A stretch of 64,000 nt of DNA from Odontesthes bonariensis. Taxonomy: Eukaryota > Chordata > Actinopteri > Atheriniformes > Atherinopsidae. The stretch is from assembly GCF_027942865.1 (NCBI RefSeq), contig NC_134507.1, positions 38,164,797 to 38,228,796 of the forward strand. The letters are read 5' to 3'. A program made the translations under genes and the position numbers. Position 1 is the stretch's first letter; each line of letters starts with the position of its first letter. The notes beneath the pieces were generated by a model, which worked only from the letters and a program-made list of their open reading frames with translations, did not search any database and was not told the DNA's origin. This document shows, one piece after another, positions 2,179 through 36,235 of this stretch.

Positions 2179-2346
2179 ATGGCTGCGCCCAGCGAACAGT
2201 CTTTCGAGTTGGCTTTGGCAGCGACTCTAGAAGATTTAAATATAAATTTTTCTTTGCGAGACGAACAGATAACTGCACTTGAGTTTTTCTTGAAAAAAAA
2301 GGACGTTTTTGGAGTTTTGCTCACCGGGTACGGTAAAAGTTTAATT
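2179..2346 (+). pseudogene. RecQ-like DNA helicase N-terminus inside the hAT
   Basis: The frame starts MAAPSEQSFELALAAT and runs through LRDEQITALEFFL to a Walker A motif, TGYGKSLIYQ, around 2325-2352. RecQ-type helicases start the same way: a Q-motif-like stretch followed by GxGKS. After about 55 codons similarity ends and the frame runs into unrelated sequence, so this is the stub left by an internal deletion. Similar short RecQ-like proteins occur in fish transposons in my recollection, but I cannot name the family. It probably entered as a separate insertion roughly spanning 2100-2530; its edges could not be fixed. Confidence 0.6.
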
Positions 2347-2536
2347 TACCAGCGCTTGCTCTGTTGGTGGGACGACGCTCTGATTGGTTTTTTCGCCATC
2401 CTATTGCGTGGCGTTGAGTGCAGAGGCAACTTGACAGACAACCGTTTATCCCGCCCACACTGCTATCCAGCGTCAATAAAAGCTGTACAGGTCTGGCTTG
2501 CTAGGCTAGTGAGAAGGAGTTTACGATGGCGACAAC

Positions 2537-3157
2537 ATGAGCAGTGCTGTCAAGGCGTTCAGTGCAAAACTGTCATTGTACATTCAGCAAGTGAAAAGCA
2601 GAAGATTTCAGCACTTCCCCTCGATCTCAAAGATGCTGGACAGTCACACAGGTGCAGCCAGCGTTTTAGATGTGTCCAAGTATTGTGACCTCTTATCAAG
2701 GCTTGGACAGGAGTTTGCTGACAGATTCAGTGACTTTGACAAACTTGAGCCCTGTGTGACATTTATGGCCAACCCTTTCATGAATGTGGACATAAGTGAG
2801 ATTTCAGGACAGATGGCTGAACTTTTCTGTGTCGATCCTGTGGAAATGGAAATGGAGGTTATAAACCTTCAAAACAATGTGCAGTTAAAGTCTCAACAGC
2901 ATTCACAGCATTTCTGGAGCTTGGTAGAGCCAGATAATTATGAAAATCTTCACCAAGCAGCTCTGAAAATGTCTGCTTTGTTTGGGTCTACATACCTCTG
3001 TGAGTCAGCTTTTTCTGACATGAATGTGCTGAAATCAAAGCTCAGAACGAGACTAACTGATGAACATTTAAATGACTCCATAAGAGTGAACTTAAGTGGA
3101 TACACTCCAGCATACACCTCTCTTGTTGACTCCTTGCAGTGTCAGTCATCTCACTAG
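2537..3157 (+). pseudogene. hAT transposase, C-terminal part (GTF2IRD2/ZBED-like group)
   Basis: 206 codons remain. The last 70 (LHQAALKMSALFGSTYLCES, then AFSDMNVLKSKLRTRLTDEH, ending NDSIRVNLS) match the hAT C-terminal dimerisation region. The DDE catalytic part upstream is gone, apart from the stretch before it (FADRFSDFDKLEPCVTFMAN). The methionine at 2537 is an internal one, not the native start. It ends with a stop near 3157, followed by an AC repeat (3186-3208) and an A/T-rich 3' region up to the terminal repeat. Confidence 0.8.
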
Positions 3158-4375
3158 CTAAAAAGGCTGAACTTCTGAACACATTCACACACACACACAC
3201 ACACACACCTTCGCTGCTCAATATTGAACTGAACTAAATGGTTTTTATTGTGAATGCAATTTTTGTTCTTTATTTTTGTGATGTTTTAATACAGAATGTG
3301 AGATGTGGACAGTAACATATTGTAAATGTTCAGGAAAAGAAGGCTTATTGAGTTTGTTTGTTCAAAATGAGCAATGACAATAAATGTTACAAAACACAAG
3401 TAGCTCTCGGTCATTTTTATTTTGTTAAAGTAGCTCTCAGAGGGAAAAAGGTTGGAGACCCCTGCTCTAAACTCATTGGCCTCACTGGCACAGCAATCTC
3501 TTGGTTCCAGTCTTACCTCTCAAGCAGGAAACAATACATCACTCTGAAAGGTTCCAACTCCATCACTGCAGCAGTTAACCATGGCGTCCCCCAGGGGTCT
3601 GTCCTGGGTCCCCTTCTTTTCACCATTTACATGCTCCCCCTAGGACAAATTATCCGAAACCATGGACTCAGTTTTCACTGCTATGCTGATGACACTCAGA
3701 TGTACATCAACACAAACCCCTCCTCTCAGCTCCCACCCATGCAACTCAACAACTGCCTGCAGCAAATTAAAGCTTGGTTGACCTCTAACTTTCTCAAACT
3801 CAACAGCAGCAAAACGGAGCTCATGGTAGTGGCCCCGGCACCCCTGCTGAAGAAGGTTGGTGATCTGGCCCTGGTCATAGATGGCTGTTCCATCTCTCCA
3901 TCACCAGAGGTACGGAACCTGGGTGTCATCCTGGACTCCACTCTCTCATTTCGGTCCCACATCAAGAGCATCACTAAATCTGCCTTTTTTCACCTCAGAA
4001 ACATTTCAAGACTCCGGCCCTCATTATCCGACTCAGTAACAGAGACCCTCATCCACTCATTACTGGACTACTGCAATGGTGTCCTGTCTGGGCTACCCAG
4101 TAAGGCCCTTGACAGGTTGCAGTATGTCCAAAACTCAGCTGCCAGGGTGCTAACTCACACCAAGCCCTGGCAGCACATCACCCCCATCCTAAAGCAACTT
4201 CACTGGCTCCCAGTCAAAGCATGCATCACCTATAAAATCCTTCTCTTGACCTACAAATCTCTCCACTCACTTGCACCTAAGTACATTTCCGATCTCCTCC
4301 ACCCCTACTCCCAGTCGCGGCTTCTGCGCTCCTCAGACAAGGACCTACTCTCCGTTCCTCGTACCAGACTGAAAA

Positions 4376-5519
4376 CATATGGACATGGACTGTGTGGAGG
4401 AGAAGAAGTAGATTCGTTTTTTATTGTGCTATTTTGCAATATTTGTGACAGACAAGGAAGAAAGTAAAAAATGTTTCATTTTAAAATATGCTATGCTCTC
4501 TGTGACTGTGTTCTTAGTTATTAGCTTAGTTATTATCTTACACCACAGAGACGACTGAGAAACTCAGCGCTAACTTTCGACAGCATGTGGTGACTTCCGG
4601 TTTTCAAAAATAAACGAGAACTGTCAATTTTTTATTTAAAAAAAGAAAGAGAGATGTGTGTCTCATAAAACAAGTTATAGTACTATGCCCCTACACTCGT
4701 TTTTTTTTAAATAAATAACACCGAAGCTTCAAAGCATGCTACAAACTCGCTGGAGAAATTGTCTAAAAAAAAAAAAAAAAACGTTTGAGCCCTTCTACTG
4801 TGCAAAAACTACTTTTCTTGAATAAAAACACGTGAAGTAACACAAGCACCCTCTTTATTACACCAAGCACACTCCCAAAGAAAATATGAATGACAAACCA
4901 AAATTTTTCACATTGTTTTTAAATTGTGTTATTATATACAGAAGAGATGTATCATATTTGCTTTATTTGGTGCAACAATCGCTACTGCCAGTATATGTAA
5001 CCCAAGGGAATTGAATGAAGCTTCGGGTAGTGAACCACTTTATGAGACAATGGTTCAAAATGATTCAATTTCCATCACCAGCTGCAGGTTTTCGTCCCAA
5101 ACAGGCAACAGTACGACAGTCTTGACTCAGATAATCAGCTGATCTCAGTCTGCAGATAGTTGATTGGTCAAACTGTGTGCTTATATATATATAATTATCT
5201 ATCTAATATATATAATTGTTTCATATATAAAATTATATATCTAATATATATTATTATAATTGTTTTATATACAGTTATAATTGATTCTTTATTTTAGGCA
5301 ACTCGGTGCTGCTTGCTGTTTGTGAATGTGCTGCATGGTCTCCGCCACCAGATGGCACCCGCAAAGGAGTCATTGAGCTCCGCCCCCTCAACGTTGAGCC
5401 CCGCCCCCTCAACGTTGATCTCCGCCCCGATCTGCGGTCTGCAGTCAGGGGTACTTGGTTCTGGCTGGATGCAATTGAATACAGGAGTGTAATACTGTTT
5501 CTCGTCACATAGCCCATAC
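4376..5519. other. No gene recognised; A/T-rich stretch
   Basis: No coding or RNA gene could be supported. It holds an A run near 4768-4782, an unassigned 72-codon frame at 4924-5142, an AT-rich low-complexity tract at about 5176-5277 built of TATAT and TAATTATA units, and at 5380-5425 a short direct repeat of a CCGCCCCCTCAACGTTGA unit. The last part may be the 5' untranslated region of the L2 that follows. Confidence 0.5.
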
Positions 5520-6703
5520 GGGTCCGGGGAGACGCTATTTCGCACTTTGCAAAATGCGAAGAAAGAAAGCAGAGATGTTTTTCTCCATAAAAGTGAGGGG
5601 GACGGATCCAAGTGAATCAAAATCAAATCAAAATCCCACCCTCTATCTGCACGCATGACCATGGAGGACAGCGGATCCAGAAAGAACCTGCAACGTCATC
5701 AGCCTCACCCCAAGATGAGGAGTCTTCACCAGCCCCAACAGCCCAACAAGTGGAGTCTTCACCAGCCCCGGCAGTCCAACAGGCGGAGTCTCCCCCAGCC
5801 CCAGTGGGAAACCCCCAGCCTTCGCCCCCCCGGACCCCACCCAGCCCCCAGCAGTCTCCACTCAGTCTGGACTCCTCACTTCTGGATTTCCCGGACAGGA
5901 TGAAGAGCTTTCTCAATATTGGAATACAATTGACACCACGCCAAAATCCCATATTCTTCCCCCCTAACATCCCACCTCATCCAGCCCCTCCCATTCCACC
6001 ACGTCCATCACGTTGGAAACAACCCTCAAACAAAAGTCACCAAGCCCCCCCACCTCCTCTGAATCATCATATCTGTGAGTCTGACTGATATGTGCCGGGT
6101 CCAGGCTGTAATACTGATATCAAGAATGCTCTTCCCCAGATAAAGTCAGGGCCCTATGGAGTTCAGACAGCCTTTTCAATCCCTGTGATGACAGGTAACA
6201 GAAAAGTGGTCAAAGTGGTGAGAATTAAAAAAGGTTCAGTCAAATCTACCAATCTATTGAATATAGTGTGTCAACCCCGAAACGCAGCAGTATCACCTGT
6301 TGTCTCCACGAGATTAGCCCTACTCAATATCAGATCACTAACCAACAAATCCCTCTTAGTAAATGACATGATCATAACCTATAATCTATACTTTTTATTT
6401 CTTAGTGAAACATGGCTGACTTAATGTAGCTGTGATACCATTCTCAATGAGGCAGCACCAACAAATTTCAGTTTTATCAATAAGTGTCGAAGTGGTAAGA
6501 AGGGCGGGGGAGTCTTTCAGTGCAGAGAAATTTTACTTGGTGATTTTAGCTCTTTTAAATATCTCTGCTTTTTAGTAAAGGGGGATCCAAAAGTTATCTT
6601 CCTAATCATTTATAGACCACCAAGATCTTTCTTTGATGAGTTTGCTGAACTGCTGTCAGTTATCTGCACTGACTATAACTTTTTTATCATAACTGGGGAT
6701 TTT
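5520..6703 (+). mobile_element. L2-clade LINE copy 2, left part
   Basis: 5' half of an L2 element. A proline-, serine- and alanine-rich frame (5612-6088, tandem SSPAP-like repeats) comes first and may be a remnant of the first ORF. A second frame (6092-6424) enters the endonuclease domain with LNIRSL and LSETW. Endonuclease similarity continues in broken frames with IIYRPP at about 6610 and ITGDF at 6690, where copy 3 is inserted. The domain continues at 11503 (NIDMDNN), showing that the two parts were once joined. Several stops and frame changes; dead. Confidence 0.8.
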
Positions 6704-7280
6704 CAATTCAATTCAATTCATTTTTATTTATATAGCGCCAAATACAACAAATGTCATCTCAAGGCACTTAGATAGTAAGTCCAATTCAAGCCAATTGGAA
6801 TTCAATTAATTAATAATAATCATAATTCATAAAATAATCCAATTCGTTCATATAGAGCCAATTCAAAAACAATTTCCTAGCTAAGAAAACCAACAGATTG
6901 CACTGAAAACTTTTTGTTTTTCGGTCCAATCTCCCGTCCTGAGCGACGTGCCTGAGGCGACTGTGGAGAGAAACGACTCCCTATTAACAGGAAGAAACCT
7001 CTGGCAGAACCAGACTCAGGAAGGGTGGCCATCCGCCTCGACCAGCTGGGGTTTGAGAAGACAGAAAGGGGGGGGGGGGGGGGGGGGGCCGCGGCGGCGG
7101 CACTGTAACACCATTCAAAGGATATCTGTTGGAACAGGGAAACACGAGTTAATGACCACAATAAAATCACATATACATAAAGAGAGTAAAGTGAGGAAAG
7201 GTGTGACAGATGAGGCCCCCCAGCAGTCTAGGCCTATAGCAGCTTAACTATGGGATGTTTCAGGATTACCTGAGCCATCC

Positions 7281-10200
7281 CTAACTATAAGCTTTATCAA
7301 AAAGGAAAGTTTTAAGCCTGGTCTTAAAAGTGGAAAGGGTGTCTGCTTCCCGGACATTTACTGGCAGCTTATTCCACAAGAGAGGGGCCTGATAACTGAA
7401 GGCTCTGCCTCCCATTCTACTTTTAGAAACTCTGGGAACCTCAAGTAAACCTGCAGTTTGGGAACGAAGTGCTCTGTTAGGAAAATATCTTACAATGAGA
7501 TCTTTAAGATATGATGGAGCTCGGTCATTAAGAGCTTTATATGTAAGGAGAAGAATCTTAAATTCTATTCTGAATTTAACAGGGAGCCAATGAAGAGAAG
7601 CTAAAACTGGAGAAATATGATCTCTCCTGTTAGTTCTCATCAGAACTCTGGCTGCAGCATTTTGGATCAACTGAAGGCTTTTCAGAGAATATGTGGGACA
7701 GCCCAATAATAAAGAATTACAGTAGTCCAATCTTGAAGTAACAAATGCATGGACTAGTTTTTCTGCATCACTCTGAGACAAGATGTTCCTGATTTTAACA
7801 ATATTACGAAGATGAAAGAAGGCAGTCCTAGAAACCTGTTTTATATGCGAGTCAAATGATAAGTTCTGGTCAAAAATAACTCCAAGGTTCCTCACTGTAG
7901 AACTAGAAGCCAAGGAAATACCATCTAGAGTAACTATATAGCTAGACAATTTCTCCCTGAAACGCTCAGGTCCAAAGATAACGACTTCAGTTTTGTCTGA
8001 ATTTAGAAGCAGACAGTTCTGAGTCATCCAGGTCTTTATGTCTTTAAGACATGCTTGTAGTCTGACCAACCTATTGGGTTCATCTGGTTTTATAGATAAG
8101 TACAGCTGAGTATCATCAGCATAGCAATGGAAATGTATGCCATGCTGTCTAATAATGTTACCTAATGGAAGCATGTATAAAGTGAAAAGAATCGGTCCAA
8201 GCACAGAACCCTGGGGAACTCCATGACTTACTCTGGTGTGTGAGGAAGATTCTTCATTTACAAGAACAAACTGAAATCTATCAGATAAATATGACTTAAA
8301 CCAGCCTAATGCAGTTCCTTTAATCCCAATAACATGTTCAAGTCTCTGTAATAAGATATTGTGATCGACCGTATCAAATGCAGCACTGAGATCCAACAGG
8401 ACAAGCAAAGACACAAGTCCGCTATCAGAGGCTAAGAGGAGATCATTGGTAACTTTCAGCAGTGCAGTTTCTGTGCTATGATGCACTCTGAATCCTGACT
8501 GAAACTCTTCAAACAGATTATTTCTGTGTAAGTGATCACAAAGCTGAGCTGCAACTATTTTTCAAGAACTTTAGACATAAAAGGGAGATTGGATATAGGT
8601 CTATAATGAGCCAACACTTCTGAATCAAGAGTAGGTTTTTTAAGTAAAGGTTTAATTACAGCAACCTTAAAAGTCTGAGGTACATATCCTGTCAACAAAG
8701 ACAGATTGATCAAATCCAATATGGAAGTGTCAATTAATGGGAAAACCTCCTTGAACAGTCTGGTTGGGATTGGGTCTAAAACACAAGTTGATGGTTTAGA
8801 AGAGACTATTGCTGTTGTTAGTTCAGAGAGATCAACTGGGCAGAAGCCGTCTAAATACAAATCAGGTTCTAAAGATACCTCTAAAGCTGCTGTACTTGAT
8901 GATACATCACTGACAATAGTGGGAAGGACTCCATCAATCTTCTCTCTGATAGAAACAATTTTATTAATAAAGAAGCTCATGAAATCATCACTGCTGAGAG
9001 TTAAAGGAATAACTGGCTCAGCAGAGCTCGGACTCTTAGTCAGACTGGCTACAGTGCTGAAAAGAAACCTGAGATTATTCTTATTCTCTTCTATCAATGA
9101 TGAATAATAAGCAGTTCTAGCTTTACGAAGGGCTTTCTTATACGTTATTAAACTATCTTTCCAGACTAACTGAGACTCTTCTAAATTAGAGGAACGCCAC
9201 TGTCTCTCCAGCTTTCTTGCAGTCTGCTTTAAAGCACGCAGCTGTGAATTATACCAAGGAGCCAACCTCTTCTGACTGATTACCTTCCTTTTCAGAGGGG
9301 CAACATTGTCCAGTGCTGTACGCATTGAAACTATAGTGCTGTCAACAAGAGAGTCAAGTGCTGCTGGAGTAAAGTTTAGGTAGTCGTCCTCTGTCATATC
9401 TGCAAATGGCAGTGAAGAAAAGGATGATGGAATTAATTCTTTAAATCTGGTTACAGCATCCTCTGATAGACACCTTCTATATGTACATTTCTTCTCAGAA
9501 ACTGTATAGTCAAGTAATGTAAACTCAAAGGTTATCAGAAAATGGTCAGATAAGACCGGGTTATGAGGGAACACTGTTAACTGTTCACTCTCAATGCCAT
9601 AAGTCAGAACAAGATCAAGGGTGTGATTAAGGCAGTGAGTCGGTCTGTGAACACTCTGAGAGAATCCAATAGAGTCTAATATAGAATTAAAGTTCATATT
9701 CAGGCTGTCATTTTCAACATCTACATGAATATTAAAGTCACCCACTACAATGACTTTATCTGTACTCAGCACTAACTGGGATAAAAACTCTGAGAATTCA
9801 GACAGAAACTCAGAATAAGGGCCAGGTGGACGATACACAACAACAAACACAAGAGGTTTCTGGGATTTCCACTTTGCGTGGGAAAAACTGAGAATCAGAG
9901 ATTCAAAAGAGCTCAAACTAATCTTGGGTCTGGGACTGATTAGTAACCCTGATCTGAAAATAGCTGCCACTCCTCCTCCTCTGCCTGTGGTTCGAGGAAC
10001 GTGAACATTTAAACAGTCACAGGGAGTTGATTCATTAATGCTAACATGATCCTCCTGCTGCAGCCAGGTTTCTGTAAGACAAAATATATCAATATGATGA
10101 TCACAAATCAACTCATTCACTAACAGAGACTTGGAAAGGAGAGATCTGATATTCAGCAAACCACATTTAATAGTTTGATGTTTTTGTTCAGTTAAAGTTT

Positions 10201-11502: not shown

Positions 11503-12604
11503 ACATTGACATGGACAATAACATGGACACTAATGCCAAAGAACTCTGCTCTCTACTTGACACTTCGATTCCCACTCTTGCCACTCAAAAGATTGGTGGA
11601 ACTGATAGCTGGAGGGGTGTCAGTCCACCTCCTTGTCACGGCCAAGGTGCCCTTGAGCAAGGCACTGTACCCCCCTTGCTTCCCGGGCGCTTCATGGCTG
11701 CCCACCGCTCCAGGTTGGCATCTGTCTCTGAGTGTGCATGTCTCTGAGTGTGTGTGACATGAGTCACACTGAGTGTGGTCACACACACTCAGAGACAGAT
11801 GCCAACCTGGAGCGGTGGGCAGCCATGAAGCGCCCGGGAAGCAAGGGGGGTACAGTGCCTTGCTCAAGGGCACCTTGGCCGTGACAAGGAGGTGGACTGA
11901 CACCCCTCCAGCTATCAGTTCCACCAATCTTTTGAGTGGCAAGAGTGGGAATCGAACCACCAACCTTCTGGTTTTTGGACGACCGACTCTAACCACTGAG
12001 CCACGGCCACCGCTTGAGGCCACACACTGGATCTGGTTATCTCTAAAGGTGTTGACATTTCTTCTGTTGATATCAAGGACTTGGCGCTCTCTGATAATTT
12101 CTGTGAGTTCTCTGACTTGAAGTTAACGGCAAACAGTCAGTTAACCCGTGTGTCTGTTAGAAAAAGTTACATAAATGAGAATACCAGTGCTAAGTTTATG
12201 GAAATTATAGCTATGTCATCAACTGCGAGTGCAGAGGCAGTTGATGAACTCTAACTTGATAACTTTAACTTGAAACTCTCAAATGTCATGGATAGTGTTG
12301 CACCTGTTAAAAATAAGATGATCTTGAGCAGAAAGCGAACACCATGGAGGATCACTATGATGGTAAAGGCCTTGAAAACAGAATGAAGGAAAGCAGAGCG
12401 TAAATGGTGAAAAACTAAACTTCAAATTCACCATGACCTCATGCCTAGTACAGCTTTTTGCTGTACAGGTCTGGCTTACTAAGCTACCCAGATCAACAGA
12501 TCAGGAGAAGCTGATTCATGCTTTCATCTCCAACAGACTGGCCTACTGTAACGGTCTTCTGACTGGCCTCCCCCAAAAGAGTCTCAAACAGCTGCAGCTC
12601 AATC
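11503..12604 (+). mobile_element. L2-clade LINE copy 2, right part
   Basis: Continuation of copy 2 after the copy 3 insertion. 11503-11565 reads NIDMDNNMDTNAKELCSLLD (endonuclease). The palindromic SINE pair (11566-12012) follows, then [11 protein letters not shown] and onward in broken frames to about 12450. Sequence then jumps through a short unrelated piece (about 12449-12490) to the RT C-terminal region, EKLIHAFISNRLAYCNGLL, ending near 12604. Most of the RT is deleted. Dead. Confidence 0.8.
11566..12012. repeat. Palindromic pair of tRNA-derived SINEs
   Basis: Two copies of the same SINE lie tail to tail as a near-perfect inverted repeat. The left copy (+) starts inside its B box at 11566; the right copy (-) runs to its complete head at about 12012. 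The arms of about 175-185 bp look almost identical by eye, differing mainly by a short CATGTCTCTGAGTG duplication near the centre. The right copy shows a tRNA-like head with an A box (TGGCTCAGTGGTTAGAG) and a B box (GGTTCGATTCC). The same SINE recurs singly near 48.0-48.4 kb and 54.7-55.1 kb. Confidence 0.82.
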
Positions 12605-12679
12605 AGTTTGCTTTGCTTTTGCTTTTCATCCACTTCATTGTTCATTGTTGACCTGTGCTCTTTTTTTCATCTCATTGTT

Positions 12680-12771
12680 GCAAGGGTCAGTACAGCCGGT
12701 GTGCAATGGCTGAGCCTCGTCCTGGGTGAACCACCTTCTTGATCATGGTATCTCCCCTGCCAGGTAAGTAT
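12680..12771 (-). pseudogene. U1 snRNA 5' part (nt 1-92), array left edge
   Basis: The first 92 nt of U1 with its full upstream spacer and promoter element, but the 3' 72 nt are absent. Left of 12680 the sequence turns into an unrelated T-rich stretch (12605-12679). Stem-loops I and II are present; the Sm site and the last stem-loop are missing, so it cannot give a stable U1 RNP. Confidence 0.92.
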
Positions 12772-12813
12772 GAGTTGGAACTGTCAGAGGCTGACACCTC
12801 TTTTCCAGGTGCC

Positions 12814-12833
12814 TCACTCGGCCGGACGGTGCA
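12814..12833 (-). promoter_or_regulatory. Presumed U1 proximal sequence element (repeated in every unit)
   Basis: Minus-strand GCACCGTCCGGCCGAGTG lies 44-61 bp upstream of the U1 start, where snRNA-type Pol II genes carry the SNAPc-binding proximal element. The same place upstream of the U2 fragment and the U5 gene also has CACCG. Equivalent sites recur every 712 bp (for example 13528-13545). No octamer motif was found in the spacer. Confidence 0.6.
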
Positions 12834-13319
12834 GCAAATTCAACTGTCTGCTGTGCCATGCCAGCAGCTAACCTGAATCTGAAAAGCTTGCAGATTAAAA
12901 CACTCCGGCTTTTCTTCATCTTTCTGATCAGTACTTGTTTCAACAACCAAGGACCTTGGAGCACAAATTTATTTAGTTTTTCCACTCTCCCCATCTCTAG
13001 AGCCACACCCACCCACACTGGGAAAATTCTTAGTTGAGGCAAACCCTCAAGGCTTAAAATCTCCAGTGCAGAAATGCTGCCGTATTCTCATCTCGTTGTT
13101 GCCATCACTAAGGCAACGCCCACCTGCCTGGGGTGACTGCACTGTATGACCTCACCTGACAACTGCGCAGCTGCATATCAGCTGTGCAGACCTGCCGCAG
13201 CATCCAGCAAACCTTGCAAAACATGGGTTTTAAAGATGGAAAGGTGTCGTTAAAGCAGCAACGCCAGGACAAAAACCAAGGTAGAGTTGCCCAGGGATAT
13301 TCTCGTTAAACAGTCAAAT

Positions 13320-13483
13320 CAGGGGAGAGCGCGAACGCAGTCCCCCACTACCAGAAATTATGCAGTCGAGATTCCCACATTTGGGGAATTCGCAAGGGTC
13401 AGTACAGCCGGTGTGCAATGGCTGAGCCTCGTCCTGGGTGAACCACCTTCTTGATCATGGTATCTCCCCTGCCAGGTAAGTAT
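13320..13483 (-). ncRNA. RNU1: U1 snRNA gene, copy A
   Basis: U1 pairs with 5' splice sites as part of the spliceosome. Read on the minus strand the gene starts ATACTTACCTGGCAGGGG, whose ACTTACCTG is the splice-site-pairing segment, and ends GCGCTCTCCCCTG. The length of 164 nt equals human U1. The U1-70K loop reads GATCAAGAAGG (human GATCACGAAGG), and the U1A loop keeps ATTGCAC. The Sm site is ATTTCTGG, which fits AUUUSUGG. A promoter element with CACCG lies 45-62 bp upstream (13528-13545). This copy's upstream spacer has a G/C-to-A type change beside that element (GTGCATCACT on the plus strand instead of GTGCCTCACT). Probably functional; expression cannot be judged from sequence. Confidence 0.95.
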
Positions 13484-14031
13484 GAGTTGGAACTGTCAGA
13501 GGCTGACACCTCTTTTCCAGGTGCATCACTCGGCCGGACGGTGCAGCAAATTCAACTGTCTGCAGTGCCATGCCAGCAGCTAACCTGAATCTGAAAAGCT
13601 TGCAGATTAAAACAGTCCGGCTTTTCTTCATCTTTCTGATCAGTTCTTGTTTCAACAACCAAGGAACTTGGAGCACAAATTTATTTAGTTTTTCCACTCT
13701 CCCCATCTCTAGAGCCACACCCACCCACACTGGGAAAATTCTTAGTTGAGGCAAACCCTCACGGCTTAAAATCTCCAGTGCAGATATGCCGCCGTGGTCT
13801 CATCTCGTTGTTGCCATCACTAAGGCAACGCCCACCTGCCTGGGGTGACTGCACTGTATGACCTCACCTGACAACTGCGCAGCTGCATATCAGCTGTGCA
13901 GACCTGCCGCAGCATTCAGCAAACCTTGCAAAACATGGGTTTTAAAGATGGGAAGGTGTCGTTAAAGCAGCAACGCCAGGACAAAAACCAAGGTAGAGTT
14001 GCCCAGGGATATTCACGTTAAACAGTCAAAT

Positions 14032-14195
14032 CAGGGGAGAGCGCGAACGCAGTCCCCCACTACCAGAAATTATGCAGTCGAGATTCCCACATTTGGGGAA
14101 TTCGCAAGGGTCAGTACAGCCGGTGTGCAATGGCTGAGCCTCGTCCTGGGTGAACCACCTTCTTGATCATGGTATCTCCCCTGCCAGGTAAGTAT
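14032..14195 (-). ncRNA. RNU1: U1 snRNA gene, copy B
   Basis: Same 164-nt sequence as copy A by eye, with the splice-site-pairing 5' end, both protein-binding loops and the Sm site. The upstream element carries the array-majority sequence GCACCGTCCGGCCGAGTG. Downstream, GTTTAAC about 11 bp past the 3' end could be part of a 3' box, though the match to the vertebrate consensus is weak. Confidence 0.95.
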
Positions 14196-14743
14196 GAGTT
14201 GGAACTGTCAGAGGCTGACACCTCTTTTCCAGGTGCCTCACTCGGCCGGACGGTGCAGCAAATTCAACTGTCTGCTGTGCCATGCCAGCAGCTAACCTGA
14301 ATCTGAAAAGCTTGCAGATTAAAACACTCCGGCTTTTCTTCATCTTTCTGATCAGTTCTTGTTTCAACAACCAAGGACCTTGGAGCACAAATTTATTTAG
14401 TTTTTCCACTCTCCCCATCTCTAGAGCCACACCCACCCACACTGGGAAAATTCTTAGTTGAGGCAAACCCTCACGGCTTAAAATCTCCAGTGCAGATATG
14501 CCGCCGTGGTCTCATCTCGTTGTTGCCATCACTAAGGCAACGCCCACCTGCCTGGGGTGACTGCACTGTATGACCTCACCTGACAACTGCGCAGCTGCAT
14601 ATCAGCTGTGCAGACCTGCCGCAGCATTCAGCAAACCTTGCAAAACATGGGTTTTAAAGATGGGAAGGTGTCGTTAAAGCAGCAACGCCAGGACAAAAAC
14701 CAAGGTAGAGTTGCCCAGGGATATTCACGTTAAACAGTCAAAT

Positions 14744-14907
14744 CAGGGGAGAGCGCGAACGCAGTCCCCCACTACCAGAAATTATGCAGTCGAGATTCCC
14801 ACATTTGGGGAATTCGCAAGGGTCAGTACAGCCGGTGTGCAATGGCTGAGCCTCGTCCTGGGTGAACCACCTTCTTGATCATGGTATCTCCCCTGCCAGG
14901 TAAGTAT
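14744..14907 (-). ncRNA. RNU1: U1 snRNA gene, copy C
   Basis: Identical by eye to copies A and B in the transcribed region and with the majority promoter element. The spacer just upstream differs from its neighbours by CTCACAGCTT in place of CTCACGGCTT near 15183. Confidence 0.95.
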
Positions 14908-15455
14908 GAGTTGGAACTGTCAGAGGCTGACACCTCTTTTCCAGGTGCCTCACTCGGCCGGACGGTGCAGCAAATTCAACTGTCTGCTGTGCCATGCCAG
15001 CAGCTAACCTGAATCTGAAAAGCTTGCAGATTAAAACACTCCGGCTTTTCTTCATCTTTCTGATCAGTTCTTGTTTCAACAACCAAGGACCTTGGAGCAC
15101 AAATTTATTTAGTTTTTCCACTCTCCCCATCTCTAGAGCCACACCCACCCACACTGGGAAAATTCTTAGTTGAGGCAAACCCTCACAGCTTAAAATCTCC
15201 AGTGCAGATATGCCGCCGTGGTCTCATCTCGTTGTTGCCATCACTAAGGCAACGCCCACCTGCCTGGGGTGACTGCACTGTATGACCTCACCTGACAACT
15301 GCGCAGCTGCATATCAGCTGTGCAGACCTGCCGCAGCATTCAGCAAACCTTGCAAAACATGGGTTTTAAAGATGGGAAGGTGTCGTTAAAGCAGCAACGC
15401 CAGGACAAAAACCAAGGTAGAGTTGCCCAGGGATATTCACGTTAAACATTCAAAT

Positions 15456-15619
15456 CAGGGGAGAGCGCGAACGCAGTCCCCCACTACCAGAAATTATGCA
15501 GTCGAGATTCCCACATTTGGGGAATTCGCAAGGGTCAGTACAGCCGGTGTGCAATGGCTGAGCCTCGTCCTGGGTGAACCACCTTCTTGATCATGGTATC
15601 TCCCCTGCCAGGTAAGTAT
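15456..15619 (-). ncRNA. RNU1: U1 snRNA gene, copy D
   Basis: Full 164-nt U1. A difference lies just past the 3' end: TAAACATTCAAAT on the plus strand replaces TAAACAGTCAAAT, inside the stretch where a 3' box would be expected, so 3' end formation could differ slightly. Confidence 0.95.
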
Positions 15620-16167
15620 GAGTTGGAACTGTCAGAGGCTGACACCTCTTTTCCAGGTGCCTCACTCGGCCGGACGGTGCAGCAAATTCAACTGTCTGCT
15701 GTGCCATGCCAGCAGCTAACCTGAATCTGAAAAGCTTGCAGATTAAAACACTCCGGCTTTTCTTCATCTTTCTGATCAGTTCTTGTTTCAACAACCAAGG
15801 ACCTTGGAGCACAAATTTATTTAGTTTTTCCACTCTCCCCATCTCTAGAGCCACACCCACCCACACTGGGAAAATTCTTAGTTGAGGCAAACCCTCACGG
15901 CTTAAAATCTCCAGTGCAGATATGCCGCCGTGGTCTCATCTCGTTGTTGCCATCACTAAGGCAACGCCCACCTGCCTGGGGTGACTGCACTGTATGACCT
16001 CACCTGACAACTGCGCAGCTGCATATCAGCTGTGCAGACCTGCCGCAGCATTCAGCAAACCTTGCAAAACATGGGTTTTAAAGATGGGAAGGTGTCGTTA
16101 AAGCAGCAACGCCAGGACAAAAACCAAGGTAGAGTTGCCCAGGGATATTCACGTTAAACAGTCAAAT

Positions 16168-16331
16168 CAGGGGAGAGCGCGAACGCAGTCCCCCACTACC
16201 AGAAATTATGCAGTCGAGATTCCCACATTTGGGGAATTCGCAAGGGTCAGTACAGCCGGTGTGCAATGGCTGAGCCTCGTCCTGGGTGAACCACCTTCTT
16301 GATCATGGTATCTCCCCTGCCAGGTAAGTAT
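16168..16331 (-). ncRNA. RNU1: U1 snRNA gene, copy E
   Basis: Full 164-nt U1 with all motifs. Its promoter element differs: the plus strand reads CGGCCTGACGGTGC instead of CGGCCGGACGGTGC near 16380, one change inside the presumed proximal element, which might alter promoter strength. Confidence 0.94.
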
Positions 16332-16879
16332 GAGTTGGAACTGTCAGAGGCTGACACCTCTTTTCCAGGTGCCTCACTCGGCCTGACGGTGCAGCAAATT
16401 CAACTGTCTGCAGTGCCATGCCAGCAGCTAACCTGAATCTGAAAAGCTTGCAGATTAAAACACTCCGGCTTTCCTTCATCTTTCTGATCAGTTCTTGTTT
16501 CAACAACCAAGGACCTTGGAGCACAAATTTATTTAGTTTTTCCACTCTCCCCATCTCTAGAGCCACACCCACCCACACTGGGAAAATTCTTAGTTGAGGC
16601 AAACCCTCACGGCTTAAAATCTCCAGTGCAGATATGCCGCCGTGGTCTCATCTCGTTGTTGCCATCACTAAGGCAACGCCCACCTGCCTGGGGTGACTGC
16701 ACTGTATGACCTCACCTGACAACTGCGCAGCTGCATATCAGCTGTGCAGACCTGCCGCAGCATTCAGCAAACCTTGCAAAACATGGGTTTTAAAGATGGG
16801 AAGGTGTCGTTAAAGCAGCAACGCCAGGACAAAAACCAAGGTAGAGTTGCCCAGGGATATTCACGTTAAACAGTCAAAT

Positions 16880-17043
16880 CAGGGGAGAGCGCGAACGCAG
16901 TCCCCCACTACCAGAAATTATGCAGTCGAGATTCCCACATTTGGGGAATTCGCAAGGGTCAGTACAGCCGGTGTGCAATGGCTGAGCCTCGTCCTGGGTG
17001 AACCACCTTCTTGATCATGGTATCTCCCCTGCCAGGTAAGTAT
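16880..17043 (-). ncRNA. RNU1: U1 snRNA gene, copy F
   Basis: Full 164-nt U1, last whole copy of the array. The promoter element is the majority type. The upstream spacer has one private change (ACAAATTGATTTAG for ACAAATTTATTTAG near 17240). Confidence 0.95.
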
Positions 17044-17591
17044 GAGTTGGAACTGTCAGAGGCTGACACCTCTTTTCCAGGTGCCTCACTCGGCCGGACG
17101 GTGCAGCAAATTCAACTGTCTGCTGTGCCATGCCAGCAGCTAACCTGAATCTGAAAAGCTTGCAGATTAAAACACTCCGGCTTTTCTTCATCTTTCTGAT
17201 CAGTTCTTGTTTCAACAACCAAGGACCTTGGAGCACAAATTGATTTAGTTTTTCCACTCTCCCCATCTCTAGAGCCACACCCACCCACACTGGGAAAATT
17301 CTTAGTTGAGGCAAACCCTCACGGCTTAAAATCTCCAGTGCAGATATGCCGCCGTGGTCTCATCTCGTTGTTGCCATCACTAAGGCAACGCCCACCTGCC
17401 TGGGGTGACTGCACTGTATGACCTCACCTGACAACTGCGCAGCTGCATATCAGCTGTGCAGACCTGCCGCAGCATCCAGCAAACCTTGCAAAACATGGGT
17501 TTTAAAGATGGAAAGGTGTCGTTAAAGCAGCAACGCCAGGACAAAAACCAAGGTAGAGTTGCCCAGGGATATTCACGTTAAACAGTCAAAT

Positions 17592-17666
17592 CAGGGGAGA
17601 GCGCGAACGCAGTCCCCCACTACCAGAAATTATGCAGCCGAGATTCCCACATTTGGGGAATTCGCA
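17592..17666 (-). pseudogene. U1 snRNA 3' part (nt 90-164), array right edge
   Basis: The 3' 75 nt of U1, including the Sm site and last stem-loop. It differs from whole copies by one base (GCAGCCGAG for GCAGTCGAG on the plus strand). Sequence beyond 17666 is unrelated, so this piece has no promoter. It complements the left-edge fragment with a 3-nt overlap. Confidence 0.92.
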
Positions 17667-18212
17667 GAAGATTTCCGAACTGAAGTGCAAAAGTCTACGT
17701 TTCTTGTAGACAGTTACGGCCTGTTATTGGCCTAGAGTCTACGTTAAATGTAGACTCTAGGCCAATCAGAGAGGAGTCTACATTCTAAACGTACACTCTA
17801 GGCCAATCAGAGAGGCTCTTGGCCAATTCAAGCCAAACCAACTCGCGAAATACCGAGAGGCTGCTACGAAGGTACAGTTTGTTACTACGATCATATTCTA
17901 GCGATATACCTCTGTAATTGATAAAAAATGTCCCGCATTTACCTACTACGATCATATTCTAGCGATATACCTCTGTAATTTATCAAAAAGATCACCTGTT
18001 TATTTGTAATAGGCTACAAGGTTTTTAGCGTAAAGCTGGGTGACCGGAGGGTGTTAGCAACGCTATAAAGTTTATTTTTTAGCAACAAAAAAGAATACAG
18101 CATGGCTATATTTATATCGTTTTCCTTTCTACTTTGTGAATGTCACATCAACAGAAAACAGATAACGTTTTTAATGTCGTAACATGGAAGTCGAGTGACA
18201 CCAGCGGCAGTA
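17667..18212. repeat. Spacer with short inverted and direct repeats; left copy of a flank duplication
   Basis: 17690-17815 holds repeats of GTCTACGTT- and CTAGGCCAATCAGAGAGG-like units, partly inverted. 17881-17995 contains a tandem duplication of about 60 bp (ACGATCATATTCTAGCG units). 17943-18212 is repeated with divergence at 19861-20155. No gene was recognised. Confidence 0.6.
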
Positions 18213-18401
18213 CAGGGGTCCGTTTCACGTAGCAGGTACAACCAACTCTGAGTCTATTCCTGATCTCTGAGTTGATCTACTCTGAGATAGAAAACCCTGA
18301 GTTTTCGGTTCCAGAAACGCTGATTTGAGTGAGGTTAATCAACTCTGAGTAAGTTCACCTTGAGTTTAGCGCGTGCACCACAACTTTAAAAAGCCAGCAT
18401 C

Positions 18402-18709
18402 AATGGAGCCCCGATTCGACGAGTCACCTTGGCAACGGGGAAGAGGAGGGGCTACGTTTTTCACCAACCTCGAATTGGAAATCTTAATGCGCTCATACGG
18501 CGAGTTTCAAAACGTTTTTAGAAATAAGTGCAACACCGCTGCAGCAGCAAAAGTGTAAGTTTACATGTAGTCCTTTGCAATCACAATAAAATTACAGGGG
18601 AAACTGCTTGAATGGTAGCCCATTCATTTATTTCATTTAGGTGAAATCCCGCAGGGGAGAAGCGCACTTGGCAGCAGTCTAAGATGAAATATAAAAACAT
18701 TGTTCAAAC
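18402..18709 (+). pseudogene. Harbinger accessory Myb/SANT-like protein, first two exons
   Basis: The frame starts MEPRFDESPWQRGRGGATFF and continues FTNLELEILMRSYGEFQNVF, the first helices of a Myb/SANT-like DNA-binding domain, up to a donor-like GTAAGT at 18556. Similarity resumes at about 18643-18709 with NPAGEKRTWQQSKMKYKNIV before GTGAGA. The remaining C-terminal part is not visible. In Harbinger elements this protein binds element ends and helps import the transposase. Confidence 0.7.
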
Positions 18710-18861
18710 AGGTGAGACCTCGGCATGGAGGTTCCTCATTTTGATCATGTTTTACACTGTAAAATAAATATTAAGTGGCTATTTGACTGTGCAGTTATTT
18801 TATTCCCAACAATGCTGTTTTCACACACATAAACTATGTCTTCTCATCTATACCATCCATC

Positions 18862-19045
18862 CATTATCTATACCGCTGAATCCGTCAGTCGGGTCGCGGG
18901 GGGGCTGGAGCCTATCCCAGCGGTCAATGGGCAAGGGGCGGGGTACACCCTGGACAGGCCGCCAGTCCATCACAGGGCCACATTAGAGACAAACGAGACA
19001 AACAACCATACACACTCACAGTCACTCCGAAGGACAATTTAGAGT
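18862..19045 (+). repeat. Dispersed teleost repeat inside the Harbinger element
   Basis: Contains the phrases GGGTCGCGGGGGGGCTGGAG, GGCGGGGTACACCCTGGAC and CCATACACACTCACA, which I recognise as a very common fish interspersed repeat, preceded by CCATCCATTATCTATACCGC. I cannot give the family name with confidence. Confidence 0.55.
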
Positions 19046-19860
19046 CATCATCTATATCATGTTCTGTTAAATAATTAAGCCTATTTAAACTAACACAGAC
19101 TTCTACTGAGCCAACAGAAATAAGGCAGATGCCCGTAAAACGGGTGGTGCCCAGCACCACCACCTCTAACGGGAGGGCAGTGTCTGAGGGAATCCCCGGA
19201 GGGAGTCCACCCCCAAGACACGAGTGCTTTTATAAAATATAATAGGCCTATATATGTCTTTTTTAAGCCTATTCATACAAATATTTATTTGTCTTTTATG
19301 TATTTTTTTTCTTTTGTCCCAACACATTCTGATGGTGCCGCTCAAAAAGATAATTGTCTGTAAATGCAAAAATCTATGCGCGGTCTGATAACCATCTCTG
19401 ACGAATATTTATTTTTCTGCGCAATAATGCTGCACCTTCATCCACGGGATCGTTGTCAAAAGGACATGTTCGTGAAAAAAGTTGCCTCCTACTGTGCCTA
19501 ATGGACTTCTAGAAGTAGAAGAACTCGCTCTGCTGACTGAATGAATGAGGAAATCAAATGGCGTGTGTGGCTGAAAGAGGGCGGAGACAGAAAGAAACTC
19601 AAGGTTTCTTGAATAAAACCTGGTCCCGACCAGGTTAGGTTCAGAGAGTCTGTTATTCCGGTAACTGACCGTGAGGTTAAGTTACCTCTCTTTGTGAAAC
19701 AGGCTAGAGTTACCCCTCTTTCTCGGGGTTGAGTTACCTCCCTTTGTGAAACGGAAAACTCAGGGTTTCCCTCATTTCAGGGTTAACCTACTCAGAGTTT
19801 TCACTAAACCTGCTACGTGAAACGGACCTCTGGTCTGCAGCCAGACCCTGTTGCTCGTCT

Positions 19861-20155
19861 GCGATCATATTCTGGCGATATACCTCTGTAATTTATTAAG
19901 AAGATCACCTGTTTATTTTTAATACAAGGTTTTAAGCGTGATGTTAAAGCTGGGTGACAGTACGCTGTAAATATCTCCGCGTTGCTCCATGGGTGTTTTG
20001 TTTAATCAACGCTATAAAGTTTATTTTAGCAAAAAAAAATATACAGCATGGCTATATTTATATCGTTTTCCTGTCTACTTTGTGAATGTCACATCAACAG
20101 ATAATAGATAACGTTTTTAGCGTTGTAACATGAAAGTCGAGTGACACCAGCGACA
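19861..20155 (+). repeat. Right copy of the flank duplication
   Basis: Diverged direct copy of 17943-18212: both contain GCGATATACCTCTGTAATTT, AACGCTATAAAGTTTATTTT, ACAGCATGGCTATATTTATA and AGTCGAGTGACACCAGCG. The right copy has about 40 extra bp (around 19960-20005). It lies just upstream of the three-exon gene, so it may be a duplicated promoter region. Confidence 0.75.
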
Positions 20156-20405
20156 GTGCACAAGCGCTCTTTCGAGCTGCAACTGTCAAGTGCGTCTGCG
20201 ATTTGGCCCGGAGCCATTATTTATGCAAAAAAAAAAAACTATCCACCTCGTTTGTATGAATTTTAATACGTGTTACATTTGCCTATTGTACATTTTCAAT
20301 TCTGGTGGCAATGCTATGGCTTTTGCCTCCATTTGTCTAATAATAGTGACTATTGCAATGGTTATAATGATCATGATATTGCTAAAAGTCTGTTGACAAT
20401 TTCAG

Positions 20406-20873
20406 GACATGGATACTTTGCTGCCAGCACTCAACATCCTGAACACCAGCCTGCCGGTAGAGAGGCAGCAATGCGTTCTGGCAGCCTCCAAGGCAGCCAA
20501 GGCCCAGCAGGGGAGAGGTCAGGTTTGTCCGATGGACGACAAACTAAGGGACCCCAAGACTGCCTTTGAGGAGGGTAAACATCTTGGCATTGCATTTATA
20601 CTATAAATATATAAGTAATGACAATGTGGTGCACTAGAGCTTTTGCTTGCCTATTCACTGAGGTCATAACATGTCTCGTCTTCAGCAAAGAGGCGCTGTG
20701 GTGTACAGAGGCCGACTGAGGCCCAGTACTTTGGGCAGCTGGTCCTGACCTTCTACACCGGCCGGACCTTTAAGTGGCTGGTCGAGAACGACGTGAGCTA
20801 CGTCAAGTAGTAAGCATTTACAAGAAAACCAAAGCAAGCCAGGAACAGTTTTCCCTTCACTGAAACTAACAGC

Positions 20874-20938
<65 letters not shown>

Positions 20939-21170
20939 TTCAGTCTCGTCGACCGCCACTGTAAAGAGAGCCGGCAGCCGGAGAAGCGTGGGGCCTTAAA
21001 CGAGGAGTGGCTGAAGGACAGCCTGCTGCAGTATGTGGAGCTCTTTCCGGCCATCTCCTGCCACCTCGAGAGGAACGTGGACAAGGCCATTTACGGCATG
21101 GGCCGTTTCCGGTCGTTCACGTTCCTCGAGATGTGGCAGTGGTACCAGCGCCACCAATCTGGTCAAATTG
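20406..21170 (+). CDS. Unrecognised gene fragment, three spliceable exons
   Basis: Exons 20406-20574, 20686-20809 and 20944-21170 have consistent phases and GT/AG borders (GTAAAC, GTAAGC, GTCAGT; TTTCAG, TTCAG, TTTCAG). The first ATG is at 20409 (MDTLLPALNILNTSLPVERQ), four bases into the exon, so it may be the start or an internal Met. The joined frame continues through CPMDDKLRDPKTAFEEA, YFGQLVLTFYTGRTFKWLVE, YLVDRHCKESRQPEKRG and CHLERNVDKAIYGMGRFRSF to EMWQWYQRHQSGQI. No stop interrupts about 172 codons. I do not recognise the family; the conserved look and clean splice sites suggest real coding descent. No further exon was found before the U1 fragment at 21716. Confidence 0.6.
20874..20937 (+). 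repeat. GT microsatellite directly before a splice acceptor
   Basis: About 32 GT units end six bases before the acceptor ATTTCAG of the third exon, where a pyrimidine tract would normally be. Confidence 0.95.
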
Positions 21171-21715
21171 GTCAGTGCTACAGGCACAATGAGTCGTGGA
21201 GTGTGTCAATTGATTCAACAATAACAGAGCCTAGTTATCAGAAATAAGGGCCATATAAATAAATGGCTTCTAGGGAAGTAGCATAAGAGGCGTAGGAGTA
21301 AGTGATAATCAATAATACTTTATTGAAAGAAAGGGAGCAAAAAAATACAAGGCATGAATTTTGAATAGCGTTTTGTTCATACACACACTTGAGATACAGC
21401 AAAAGTATGACAATAAATGCATTTAACACTTTATTCTGTTGATTGACATGACAAAACCATGCAAAAGCATGCCAGGAGGGGACTTTTGTGTGCAAATGGA
21501 TGCAGGGGGCTTATGCTTGGTGCAACTATGAAATTGTGTGCCATTTATGCTGTAATATCCTTGGCCTTCCTGGTCCTTCCTGGTCCACAAGACCTGGGGG
21601 AAGGCATATGCAAATTACTCTTTGGGTCAGTGACATCAGAATTCTTAATTGCACCTACATGGACTCTAAGCCTATGGCGTGCAGGATCAATTGCACTCCT
21701 ATTCAGCACATCGCC
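21171..21715. other. No gene recognised
   Basis: Presumably intron or intergenic sequence after the three-exon fragment. It contains an octamer ATGCAAAT at about 21608 with no supporting RNA gene. No coding similarity was seen. Confidence 0.5.
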
Positions 21716-21811
21716 ATTCGCAAGGGTCAGTACAGCCGGTGTGCAATGGCTGAGCCTCGTCCTGGATGAACCACCTTCTTGATCATGGTATCTCCCCTGC
21801 CAGGTAAGTAT
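21716..21811 (-). pseudogene. Lone U1 snRNA 5' part (nt 1-96) with shrunken spacer
   Basis: 96 nt of U1 from its 5' end, with one change (CTGGATGAACC for CTGGGTGAACC on the plus strand). Its upstream spacer is kept to about 21880, then jumps by an internal deletion to GAGGCAAACCCTCACGGC and on to about 21945. A stretch containing CATCCACTTCATTGTTC and CTCTTTTTTTCATCT follows; the same phrases lie just left of the U1 array (12630-12672). No 3' half, so not functional. Confidence 0.9.
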
Positions 21812-22006
21812 GAGTTGGAACTGTCAGAGGCTGACACCTCTTTTCCAGGTGCCTCACTTGGCCGGACGGTGCAGCAAATTGAGGCAAACCCTCACGGCTT
21901 AATATCTCCTGTGCAGACATGCTGCAGTATTCAGCAAAACTTGCTAAACATCCACTTCATTGTTCACGTGTGCTCTTTTTTTTCATCTTTTTGCTGCCAT
22001 CTCAAA

Positions 22007-23535: not shown

Positions 23536-26500
23536 AATTGGGGGCTCGCCCTTGTTCTATTTGCTAAAGTTTAGTGGGTAGTTTCTGAGCTTGGGGTTGT
23601 TGGTGGTGGCTTGATTGCTGCGCACCTGAGTGCTGATTACCCGCTGCCCTGCTGGGGGAGGGGTTGTTGGAAGTTTGCATGGCTTCAGTGGTTAGGTGAG
23701 GAGTTTCTCCTGGTGGTACTATTGTTGGGGGTAGGTTGAAACTTTGACCTGGTTGTTTTGAGGAAGTGCATGGTTTGGTATTGAAGTTGATTTGGTTTTA
23801 GTTTGAAGGTAGTTTGTGTTGTGGTAATTTAGTTTATGCGCGCTGTCTGTTATTGTTTTGGGCTGGTTGTCAGGGTAAATGTTGGTTGGTGTGTCACATT
23901 GGACCGTGTGTTCCCTCTGTTAGGCTAAGTGCATTTTCCCTTTGGAATCTGCTCATCTGTCCATAGTGTGGGGTGACGGCGGTTAGAGCAGTAGTCTCGG
24001 GGGCATGTCCATGGTTTTGGTGGTGTTTCCAGATGACTGGTCGCATGACCACACCAGTGGGTTTCAGTGCATAAATACCCGCTGCCAGATCCCCTGAAGA
24101 CTAGGGTTGAGTTGGTTTAGGTTAGTTTTGGTTAGGCAGTTTAGTTAGTGGGGGGACACACACTGAGTGGGGGTCAGTGATGACCTTTGGCACACTGGCT
24201 ACACTTGCTTTGTGACGCAGCACACGTCTGGTTTGAGCGCCTGAGTGTTTTTCCTTTCACTGCTCTTTTTCTTAATTAGTATTGACCTGGCTTGTATGTT
24301 GGAAACTTTTCTAGCTTAGAGATGGCTAGCATTGCTGAGTTTGTGGAAGCTCCGAGTTTAGAGTTATTGAATAGATTCACCAAAGACCAGTTACTCAGAG
24401 TAGCAGACCACTACAAGATAGGGATTAATGATAAAAAGTCAAATAAGGAGGTACTCGGGGTCTAATGATCAGGACTTTGACATTTTTCGCAATCTGCACC
24501 TGGTACCAAAGTTCAATGAAAAAGATCCAGAAACATTCTTTTCTCTTTTTGAATGCGTTGCTGAGGTCCGGAATTGGCCGGAGTCTGTGCGCACATTGAT
24601 GTTGCAGTGTGTATTTACTGGAAGAGCTCAAGAGGCCTATGCAAGTTTAAATTCAGAGGATAGTAAGCAGTACGCATTAGTTAAAAAGGCAGTGTTAAGA
24701 GCTTTTGAGTTGGTGCCTGAGGCGTACCGCAATTGTTTTCGTATGTGGCGGAAAAACGAGAAGCAAACCCACTTGGAATTGGCGGGTGATTTGGCGAGGC
24801 ATTTTGACCGTTGGGTTGCTGTGCTGGAAGTCAGTGATTGTGAGGGGTTGCGTGAACTTATAGTTCTCGAGCAATTTAAGAACACGTTACCTGAACATAT
24901 TGCTAATTACATCAGTGACCAGAAAGTGAAAACAGTTGCGAACGCTGCGGCATTAGCAGATGAATATGTGCTCAGGCACAGACGTTTGTTTGGTGAGCGG
25001 CGTCTGTTTAGCCGGCACCCACCTGTCTATCACCTGTAATGGCCATGGAAACGGGGCACGTTCTGATTTATGTGCAGTGGGTAGCTCAGTTAAAGTTGTT
25101 GCTACAGAGGATCATGGTGTTCGTAGCCGTGAGGAAAGAACCTGTAATTACTGTCATAAAAAGGGCCATTTACAAGCTGACTGTTATGCTCTTAAGGCTA
25201 AGTCAAACTCTAACCTCCAGTCTGTCTCTCAACCTAGGGCTAGAGGGGTGTCTATGGCTGTCTCAGTGCCACCTTCGCTGCCTTTGGTGGTGATGGGGGG
25301 GTTTCAGGTTGGGACTCATCAAAGTCCGGAACTGGAAAGTTAGACATTTTGTTAGTGATGGTTTTGTGTCTTTGGTGGGGAGTGACAAAAAAGTACCAGA
25401 TTGCGTGACACTGCTGCTTATGATACTTTTATCGAAGCGTCAGTTTTGCCATTCACTAGTGAGAGTGATACTGGGTCTTGTATTCCTGTGTTGGGTATGG
25501 GTTTAAATGTACTTCAAGTTCCCATGCATAACATCATGTTGTACTCCGATCTTTTCCAGGGACAAGCAGTTGTGGGGGTGCGTCCTGCTTTACCAGTGGA
25601 GGGTGTCAATGTGCTTTTGGGTAATGGCCTGGCTGGTGCCTGTGTGTGGGTTGACGTGCCGCCACAGTTAGAGGTGGACACGGTGCCAGTGGTAAGACAA
25701 CAGCCTGATGATAGTCAATCAGCATTCCCTGAAGTGTTCACAGCATGTGCTGTAACGCGTGCTATGACAGGGGATAAGTTTAATTCCAGCCTGTGTGAAT
25801 CAAATAAAAATGTGGGGTCGTTATCTATGTTTTCTTTGTCTGACTATCCCTTGTCAGTTTCGCAGGAAGAGTTGAAGGCGGAGCAAGAGGCTGATTGTTC
25901 CCTGCAAGGTTTGTTTGAGCAGGTGGTAACCGGTGCCCAGATAGAGAGCAGTGCTCGGGGCTATTTCCTTAAAGACTACCTGTTGGTAAGGAAATGGGTC
26001 CCGCATGGTCAGAGTTTTGTGGGTGATCCGATTATCCAAATCGTGTTGCCTGAGAGGTTTCGTGAACCTGTTTTAAAACTAGCTCATGAGGGGTCGGGGC
26101 ATCTTGGTGTTCGGAAGACATACGATCGGATTCTGAGGCTTTTTTTCTGGCCTCGGTTGAAACATGACATATCGGTACACATAAAAACTTGCCACACATG
26201 CCAACTAACAAGTAAGCCTAATCAGACTCTAAAACCTGCTCCTCTATTACCAATTCCAGCAGTCAATCAACCTTTTAAGCACTTGATCGTGGACTGTGTG
26301 GGCCCCCTCCTTCGCTCGAAATCTGGTACTATCTATCTTCTCACTGTAATGTGCCAAGCCACTCGCTATCCAGCAGCATACCCGTTGCGTACCATCACTG
26401 CTAGGTCGGTGGTGAGAGCGTTGTCACAATTCATCTCTATATTTGGCATTCCAAAAATCATTCAAAGTGACCAGGGTTCGAATTTCTCCTCACACCTTTT

Positions 26501-35626: not shown

Positions 35627-35672
35627 GAGTATTTGACACTGCGGGAGCAGTGCATCAGGCCAGTTGGCATAG

Positions 35673-36234: not shown

Positions 36235-36235
36235 T

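Follow-up and report, generated by a model that had tools for sequence, protein, structure and literature searches.

In vertebrates, genes for the U1 and U2 small nuclear RNAs (snRNAs) are found in tandem arrays, in which a short unit with one snRNA gene is repeated head to tail. The present analysis concerns such a U1 array in a 64,000-nt stretch of the fish Odontesthes bonariensis (contig NC_134507.1, positions 38,164,797 to 38,228,796; this whole stretch is denoted the window and its contig C2), one gene of which is split by a transposon of the Dada-U1 kind. As described in the main text of two papers, Dada-U1 elements insert into U1, generate a 6-bp duplication (GCGAAT), possess no terminal inverted repeats and carry the sub-terminal heptamers GTGCAAT and ATTGCAC, spaced as ATTGCAC is within U1; the same sources report them from five fish orders (Kojima and Jurka 2013, PMC3706591; Kojima 2022, PMC8869645). 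Developmental U1 isoforms, in turn, are reported from Xenopus, mouse and sea urchin (PMC4291461).

With a probability of roughly 0.7, the array represents one island of a large U1-derived tandem family on C2 (units of 712-713 bp), locally homogenised and bounded on the right by a Dada-U1 element at a fixed U1 site, the C2 copies being spare and those on a second contig, C14, being the working ones. Points of interest are an apparent excision footprint, an inversion at the edge of a target duplication, and the contrast within one genome between drifting arrayed U1 genes (C2) and uniform clustered ones (C14). The locus is also a clear example of a eukaryotic DNA transposon with site-specific insertion, seated in its target array, with targets and left ends counted assembly-wide.

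The U1 array and the transposon at its right end

The array occupies 12680-17665 on the minus strand and consists of seven head-to-tail units of 712 bp with six complete U1 genes of 164 nt each and two part genes. Its features, with the remainder of the right-hand gene, are:

12680-17665, minus: tandem array, seven units of 712 bp (repeat search and unit consensus)
12680-12771, minus: part U1 gene, nt 1-92 (5' part); the array starts here at the Dada insertion base, without Dada sequence
13320-13483, minus: complete U1 gene, 158.2 bits
14032-14195, minus: complete U1 gene, 158.2 bits
14744-14907, minus: complete U1 gene, 158.2 bits
15456-15619, minus: complete U1 gene, 158.2 bits
16168-16331, minus: complete U1 gene, 158.2 bits
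16880-17043, minus: complete U1 gene, 158.2 bits
17592-17665, minus: 3' fragment of the Dada-split U1 gene; the left target duplication (ATTCGC, 17660-17665) belongs to it
21716-21811, minus: 5' fragment of this split U1 gene; it opens with the right target duplication (21716-21721)
21812-21951, minus: decayed rest of the interrupted unit (pieces of unit 93-161, 355-404 and 496-545)

All six complete genes match the Rfam covariance model RF00003 over its full length, each well above the cut-off of 69.5 bits, and are spaced by exactly 712 bp over 13320-17043; in a repeat search, a 300-nt reference recurs seven times from 12680 on, every 712 bp. Tandem Repeats Finder covers periods of up to 500, and the array is therefore absent from its output. 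ATACTTACCTGG, the AUUGCAC loop and AAUUUCUGG are all kept in the U1 copies, and the 5' end that pairs with the splice site, this loop and the Sm site are all found in the covariance-model alignment. The first-pass annotation, made from the letters of the window, had proposed a tandem U1 array with a 712-bp period and six whole plus two partial genes that keep the 164-nt length, the splice-site-pairing 5' end, the U1A loop and the Sm site; the covariance-model scan, the repeat search and the comparison of units bear this out, and the U1 model scores none of the six copies as a pseudogene. Folds of single U1 sequences were left unused, as their lowest-energy forms pair distant parts (z = -1.25 and -1.97 at best).

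Deviations from the seven-unit consensus are confined to 22 of 4,984 positions. The spacer accounts for 21 of them; the U1 part has a single one, at 17638 inside the broken right-hand copy. Near-identical repeats assemble poorly, and an artefact, with a wrong copy number or mis-joined islands, would be one way to obtain such a picture; it is very improbable, however, as five of the seven units deviate from the consensus, the window island differs from other islands by 2.5% on average, and several islands have junctions of their own.

A DNA transposon of 4,050 bp (17666-21715) splits the right part gene; U1 sequence resumes behind it at 21716, and ATTCGC stands on either side of it as a 6-bp duplication. 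The minus-strand orientation, the transposon within the right-hand gene and the gene's other piece at 21716-21811 go beyond the first-pass annotation, whose phrase "surrounded by dead transposons" overlooks that the neighbour on the right belongs to the Dada elements that target U1 and sits within a U1 gene. The element comprises:

17666-21715, plus: Dada-U1 element, 4,050 bp, internally deleted when compared with a copy of 9,185 bp (the deletion joins at about 21161/21165)
17685-17690, plus: left sub-terminal repeat GTGCAA, 19 nt from the duplication
21690-21696, plus: right sub-terminal repeat ATTGCAC, 19 nt from the duplication
18204-19841, unstranded: element nested in the Dada copy, with inverted ends of about 34 nt

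The sub-terminal heptamers thus lie 19 nt inside both ends, and ATTGCAC is likewise 19 nt from GCGAAT in U1; the left heptamer, GTGCAAA, departs from the published GTGCAAT in its last letter. Since target, 6-bp duplication and heptamer layout match published Dada-U1, the element is given this name, and judged by its sequence it is a new copy of an already published transposon kind. It is devoid of the transposase exons of its 9,185-bp relative, of which positions 2156-8628 are missing.

The length of the array equals 7 x 712 bp plus an overlap of 3 bp, and therefore both of its ends fall at the same U1 base. A reinserted circle of U1 repeats would explain this shared phase by way of the integral unit number and the 3-bp overlap. 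Yet the right end is a transposon whose target is fixed at that very base, as it is for 13 of 13 left ends (see below), and the shared phase consequently needs no circle; a circular-DNA origin deduced from the integral phase is largely refuted and retains hardly any credibility. As a separate observation, the left flank (12380-12679) has near its end a 55-bp piece that is 78% like the sequence following the last unit piece, both in the window (21941-21988) and in locus L041 (alignment).

Dada-U1 across the assembly and possible traces of its movement

Relatives were sought in the whole assembly (945 Mb). The element's first 300 bp have eight full-length occurrences on C2, with pieces on C2 and C14, and 35 of 35 matches to this right flank of the array fall within U1 regions, either C2:33.3-39.5 Mb or C14:8.1-9.1 Mb. 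A census of left ends, using a pattern for two Dada families with up to two mismatches, yielded 13 places (12 exact) against two in a reversed control, and every one adjoins U1 at the target site, 12 with the U1 3' part and one (C2:36702096) with the 5' part. Among the eight right ends of family 1, seven join U1, one of them with an extra base, and the eighth, near C2:36337150, joins other DNA. The fixed-length heptamer pattern fits 13 left and nine right ends, a further right end (37.57) having one extra base. In other Dada copies the left duplication also reads GCTCGC or GTTCGC, and the right heptamer of family 2 is TTTGCAC.

The full Dada copy (9,185 bp, C2:33328407-33337591) has two frames that match Pfam DUF6729 (E about 1e-12). 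Hallmarks of the Dada-U1 transposase are a DDE core with a DxxH motif and zinc fingers of the CCCC type towards the N-terminus and of the CCHC type towards the C-terminus. Candidate catalytic residues in the full copy, with exon ends assumed, are D, D (69 apart), a DxxH 29 after the second D, and E; the spacings of 69 and about 195 compare with published ones of 68 and 176, and the region is missing from the window copy. For family 2, likeness is 59-63% in an exon frame compared in three stretches and 47% in a second frame compared in one. The Dada transposase would recognise the layout ATTGCAC - 19 nt - GCGAAT both in U1 and at the element's own ends.

Intact target sites, defined by a 27-nt pattern, have 220 matches in the assembly and none in the control; the pattern also fits the C14 genes, and among the matches listed all lie on C2 except one on C1. 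A pattern permitting few changes around the site captured 106 target sites on C2: the commonest sequence accounts for 90 of them, 13 show substitutions only, two an extra A and one a 7-bp insertion. The last (L029; C2:36697089-36697109) reads GCGAAT-G-GCGAAT and lies in a U1 already truncated at an island end. Excision in which one base is retained would produce such a sequence, a candidate footprint that hints at cut-and-paste movement of Dada; a small tandem duplication is the rival source. The words "excision" and "footprint" are absent from the main text of both Dada papers (PMC3706591, PMC8869645), and no paper on Dada excision at snRNA genes was among the matches listed.

Two further joints bear on breakage at the target. 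At C2:36702096, the Dada copy is flanked left and right by U1 5' parts, and its left joint reads CCCTT-ATTCGC-element, which therefore places a break at the edge of the duplication; the left end of the window array lies at the Dada base, with no recognisable Dada sequence there. The scar, this inversion and the window's left end are consistent with breaks made by Dada. Taken further, the C2 family may be a decoy broken up by its own parasite, in which Dada cleavage would break the arrays, the rejoined ends would scatter islands over C2 and the few working C14 genes would be spared; this extension appears distinctly doubtful.

Island ends were also observed at two other places in the unit. Those at unit base 49 (L024 (5593), L026 (1300), L029 and L045) have a common 19-nt flank; the likeness of L026 and L029 is 96% across 754 bp, L045 agrees with L029 across the 70 nt shown, and L024 shares the 19 nt only. 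Those at unit base 353 (L033, L034 and L043) have flanks 98% alike over 166 bp. A second site-specific element at bases 49 and 353 was set aside, as the likeness of the flanks makes duplication of the junctions the simpler account.

Arrayed U1 genes on C2 and clustered U1 genes on C14

Constraint on the family was assessed with 104 complete C2 units in 16 groups, the window being one group, from stretches fetched around well-scoring U1 and Dada hits; the set omits units not spanning unit base 3 to 708 or below 93% identity. Divergence from the consensus amounts to 1.14% in the gene against 1.10% in the spacer, rare variants occupy 52 of 164 gene sites and 156 of 548 spacer sites (p=0.43), and of the sites that vary within a group, summed over groups, 77 belong to the gene and 262 to the spacer; the gene has a fraction of 0.227 of them where 0.230 would be expected. 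The units hold 61 distinct gene sequences, and the Sm site and the U1A loop are among the positions hit by variants. With gene and spacer alike, no purifying selection on the U1 part is detectable across the 104 units.

The U1 genes on C14 are of another type, with ten assembly-wide copies that differ by at most two mismatches in 55 nt, nine of them identical. Five base differences separate it from the window U1 (C2 variants are A at nt 52 and A at nt 72), which scores 12.4 bits lower in the covariance model. Eight C14 genes, chosen as best scoring and hence alike by choice, show zero changes from -50 to the gene end; their 3' flanks differ, changes affecting 7 of 200 letters in the first 25 bp past the gene and 79 of 200 in the 25 bp after that. 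With moderate confidence, the C2 units may be regarded as spare, drifting copies beside a C14 working set, because constraint on their U1 part is not seen and the C14 set is far more uniform. The ten uniform C14 genes would then supply most of the working U1 RNA, and the redundancy of the C2 copies would let Dada insertions persist.

"Homogenised", as the first-pass annotation called the locus, describes the window island well (0.84% within it against 2.5% to other islands) and the family less well, since the effect is evident in just four of the ten groups with at least three units.

Several observations speak against spare C2 copies or complicate the picture of Dada ends. All six complete genes of the window are intact. 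Divergence across the 104 units is 0.51% in the stretch next to the U1 start (unit bases 93-165, upstream) against 1.19% further out, and the first 11 nt of U1 carry one variant event only. In the window island, the gene has two of the 23 variable sites where 5.3 would be expected (p=0.074), and one of the 22 differences (p=0.024). Hundreds of copies would leave little selection on each one, even in an expressed array. Furthermore, the census contains no left end for at least three right ends of family 2 at U1 (L027, L028 and L035), and therefore further Dada copies without a recognisable left end exist.

The promoter region gives evidence in both directions. An snRNA promoter has a proximal sequence element (PSE) near -60 and a distal element near -220. 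A PSE-like CACC is kept at -60 in the window U1, as in the C14 type, with U5 having it at -63, which again favours function. An exact-pattern scan of 600 bp upstream of the window U1 detected neither an octamer nor an SPH motif; the C14 U1 alone has an SPH-like one, at -207. When the sequences upstream of both U1 types and of U5 were aligned in pairs, only short chance-like matches emerged, the CACC being recognised by its position. These data bear on the possibility that the C2 array is a live second U1 set, e.g. of the oocyte or early embryo, with C14 as the adult set. Its intact genes, the PSE-like motif placed as in C14, the lower divergence just upstream of U1, the few gene variants in the window island and the existence of developmental isoforms in other animals (PMC4291461) would fit such a set; the unconstrained U1 part with variants in the Sm site and U1A loop, the missing exact octamer and SPH patterns and the lower covariance score do not, and a live second set is tentatively judged unlikely, if still worth weighing. 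The earlier judgement "probably live" accordingly finds partial support only: U1 identity holds, and the CACC at -60, the low proximal upstream divergence, the single variant event in the first 11 nt and the few variable gene sites of the window island speak for it, while the absence of constraint on the U1 part across the C2 units, the lack of exact octamer and SPH patterns and the separate, much more uniform U1 set on C14 speak against it.

On the sequences compared, the array is most likely a satellite-like U1 family harbouring Dada-U1, with the main U1 supply coming from C14. A caution follows for snRNA annotation: high-scoring identical copies need not be the working ones.

The C14 genes lie in two clusters of opposite orientation, at 8.13-8.18 Mb and 9.03-9.07 Mb, and their 3' flanks are alike in pairs (L002/L006, 98%; L003/L007, 87%). 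Likeness and orientation together suggest an inverted duplication. A U2 match, truncated by the end of the locus, is located about 1.4 kb from one of the C14 U1 genes.

Neighbouring features and comparison with known systems

At 35514-36354, the window contains a U5 gene (87.9 bits) and a 5S ribosomal RNA gene (95.7 bits), both on the minus strand and 0.6 kb apart, and a second 5S-like match on the plus strand at 35887-36008 stays just below the cut-off. A 97.5% copy of 35314-36330 is directly joined to a U1 array at about C2:37079750 (L030). Remains of a long terminal repeat (LTR)-type retroelement at 24422-28415, which we take to be Gmr1-like, have the integrase (25386-27098) upstream of the reverse transcriptase (27347-27991), unlike the usual Gypsy order. 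An NLR-type gene piece at 50194-51507 matches the NOD2 winged-helix and NLRC4 HD2 domains, with NACHT just below the cut-off, and a PIF1-like helicase frame at 42723-43577 is presumably a Helitron remnant.

Like the tandem U1/U2 arrays familiar from vertebrates, among them the RNU2 array and those known from fish cytogenetics, the locus has a short head-to-tail unit with one snRNA gene. Unlike them, it is one of many islands over about 7.6 Mb that often end at a transposon target, and its RNA part is without detectable constraint. With the developmental U1 isoform genes (PMC4291461) it shares two U1 sequence classes in one genome, known here from the genes.

The closest correspondence is with Dada-U1 as described in the main text of the two papers (PMC3706591, PMC8869645). 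It extends to insertion in U1 between ATTCGC and A(R)GGGTC, the 6-bp GCGAAT duplication (GCGAAT/GCGAAC), the U1-spaced heptamers, a full copy of about 9 kb and two families within one genome. Departures from the published elements are the left heptamer GTGCAAA and the family-2 right heptamer TTTGCAC, the internal deletion and nested element of the window copy, a rearranged copy with U1 5' parts on both sides, and a part U1 with a 7-bp insertion resembling an excision footprint.

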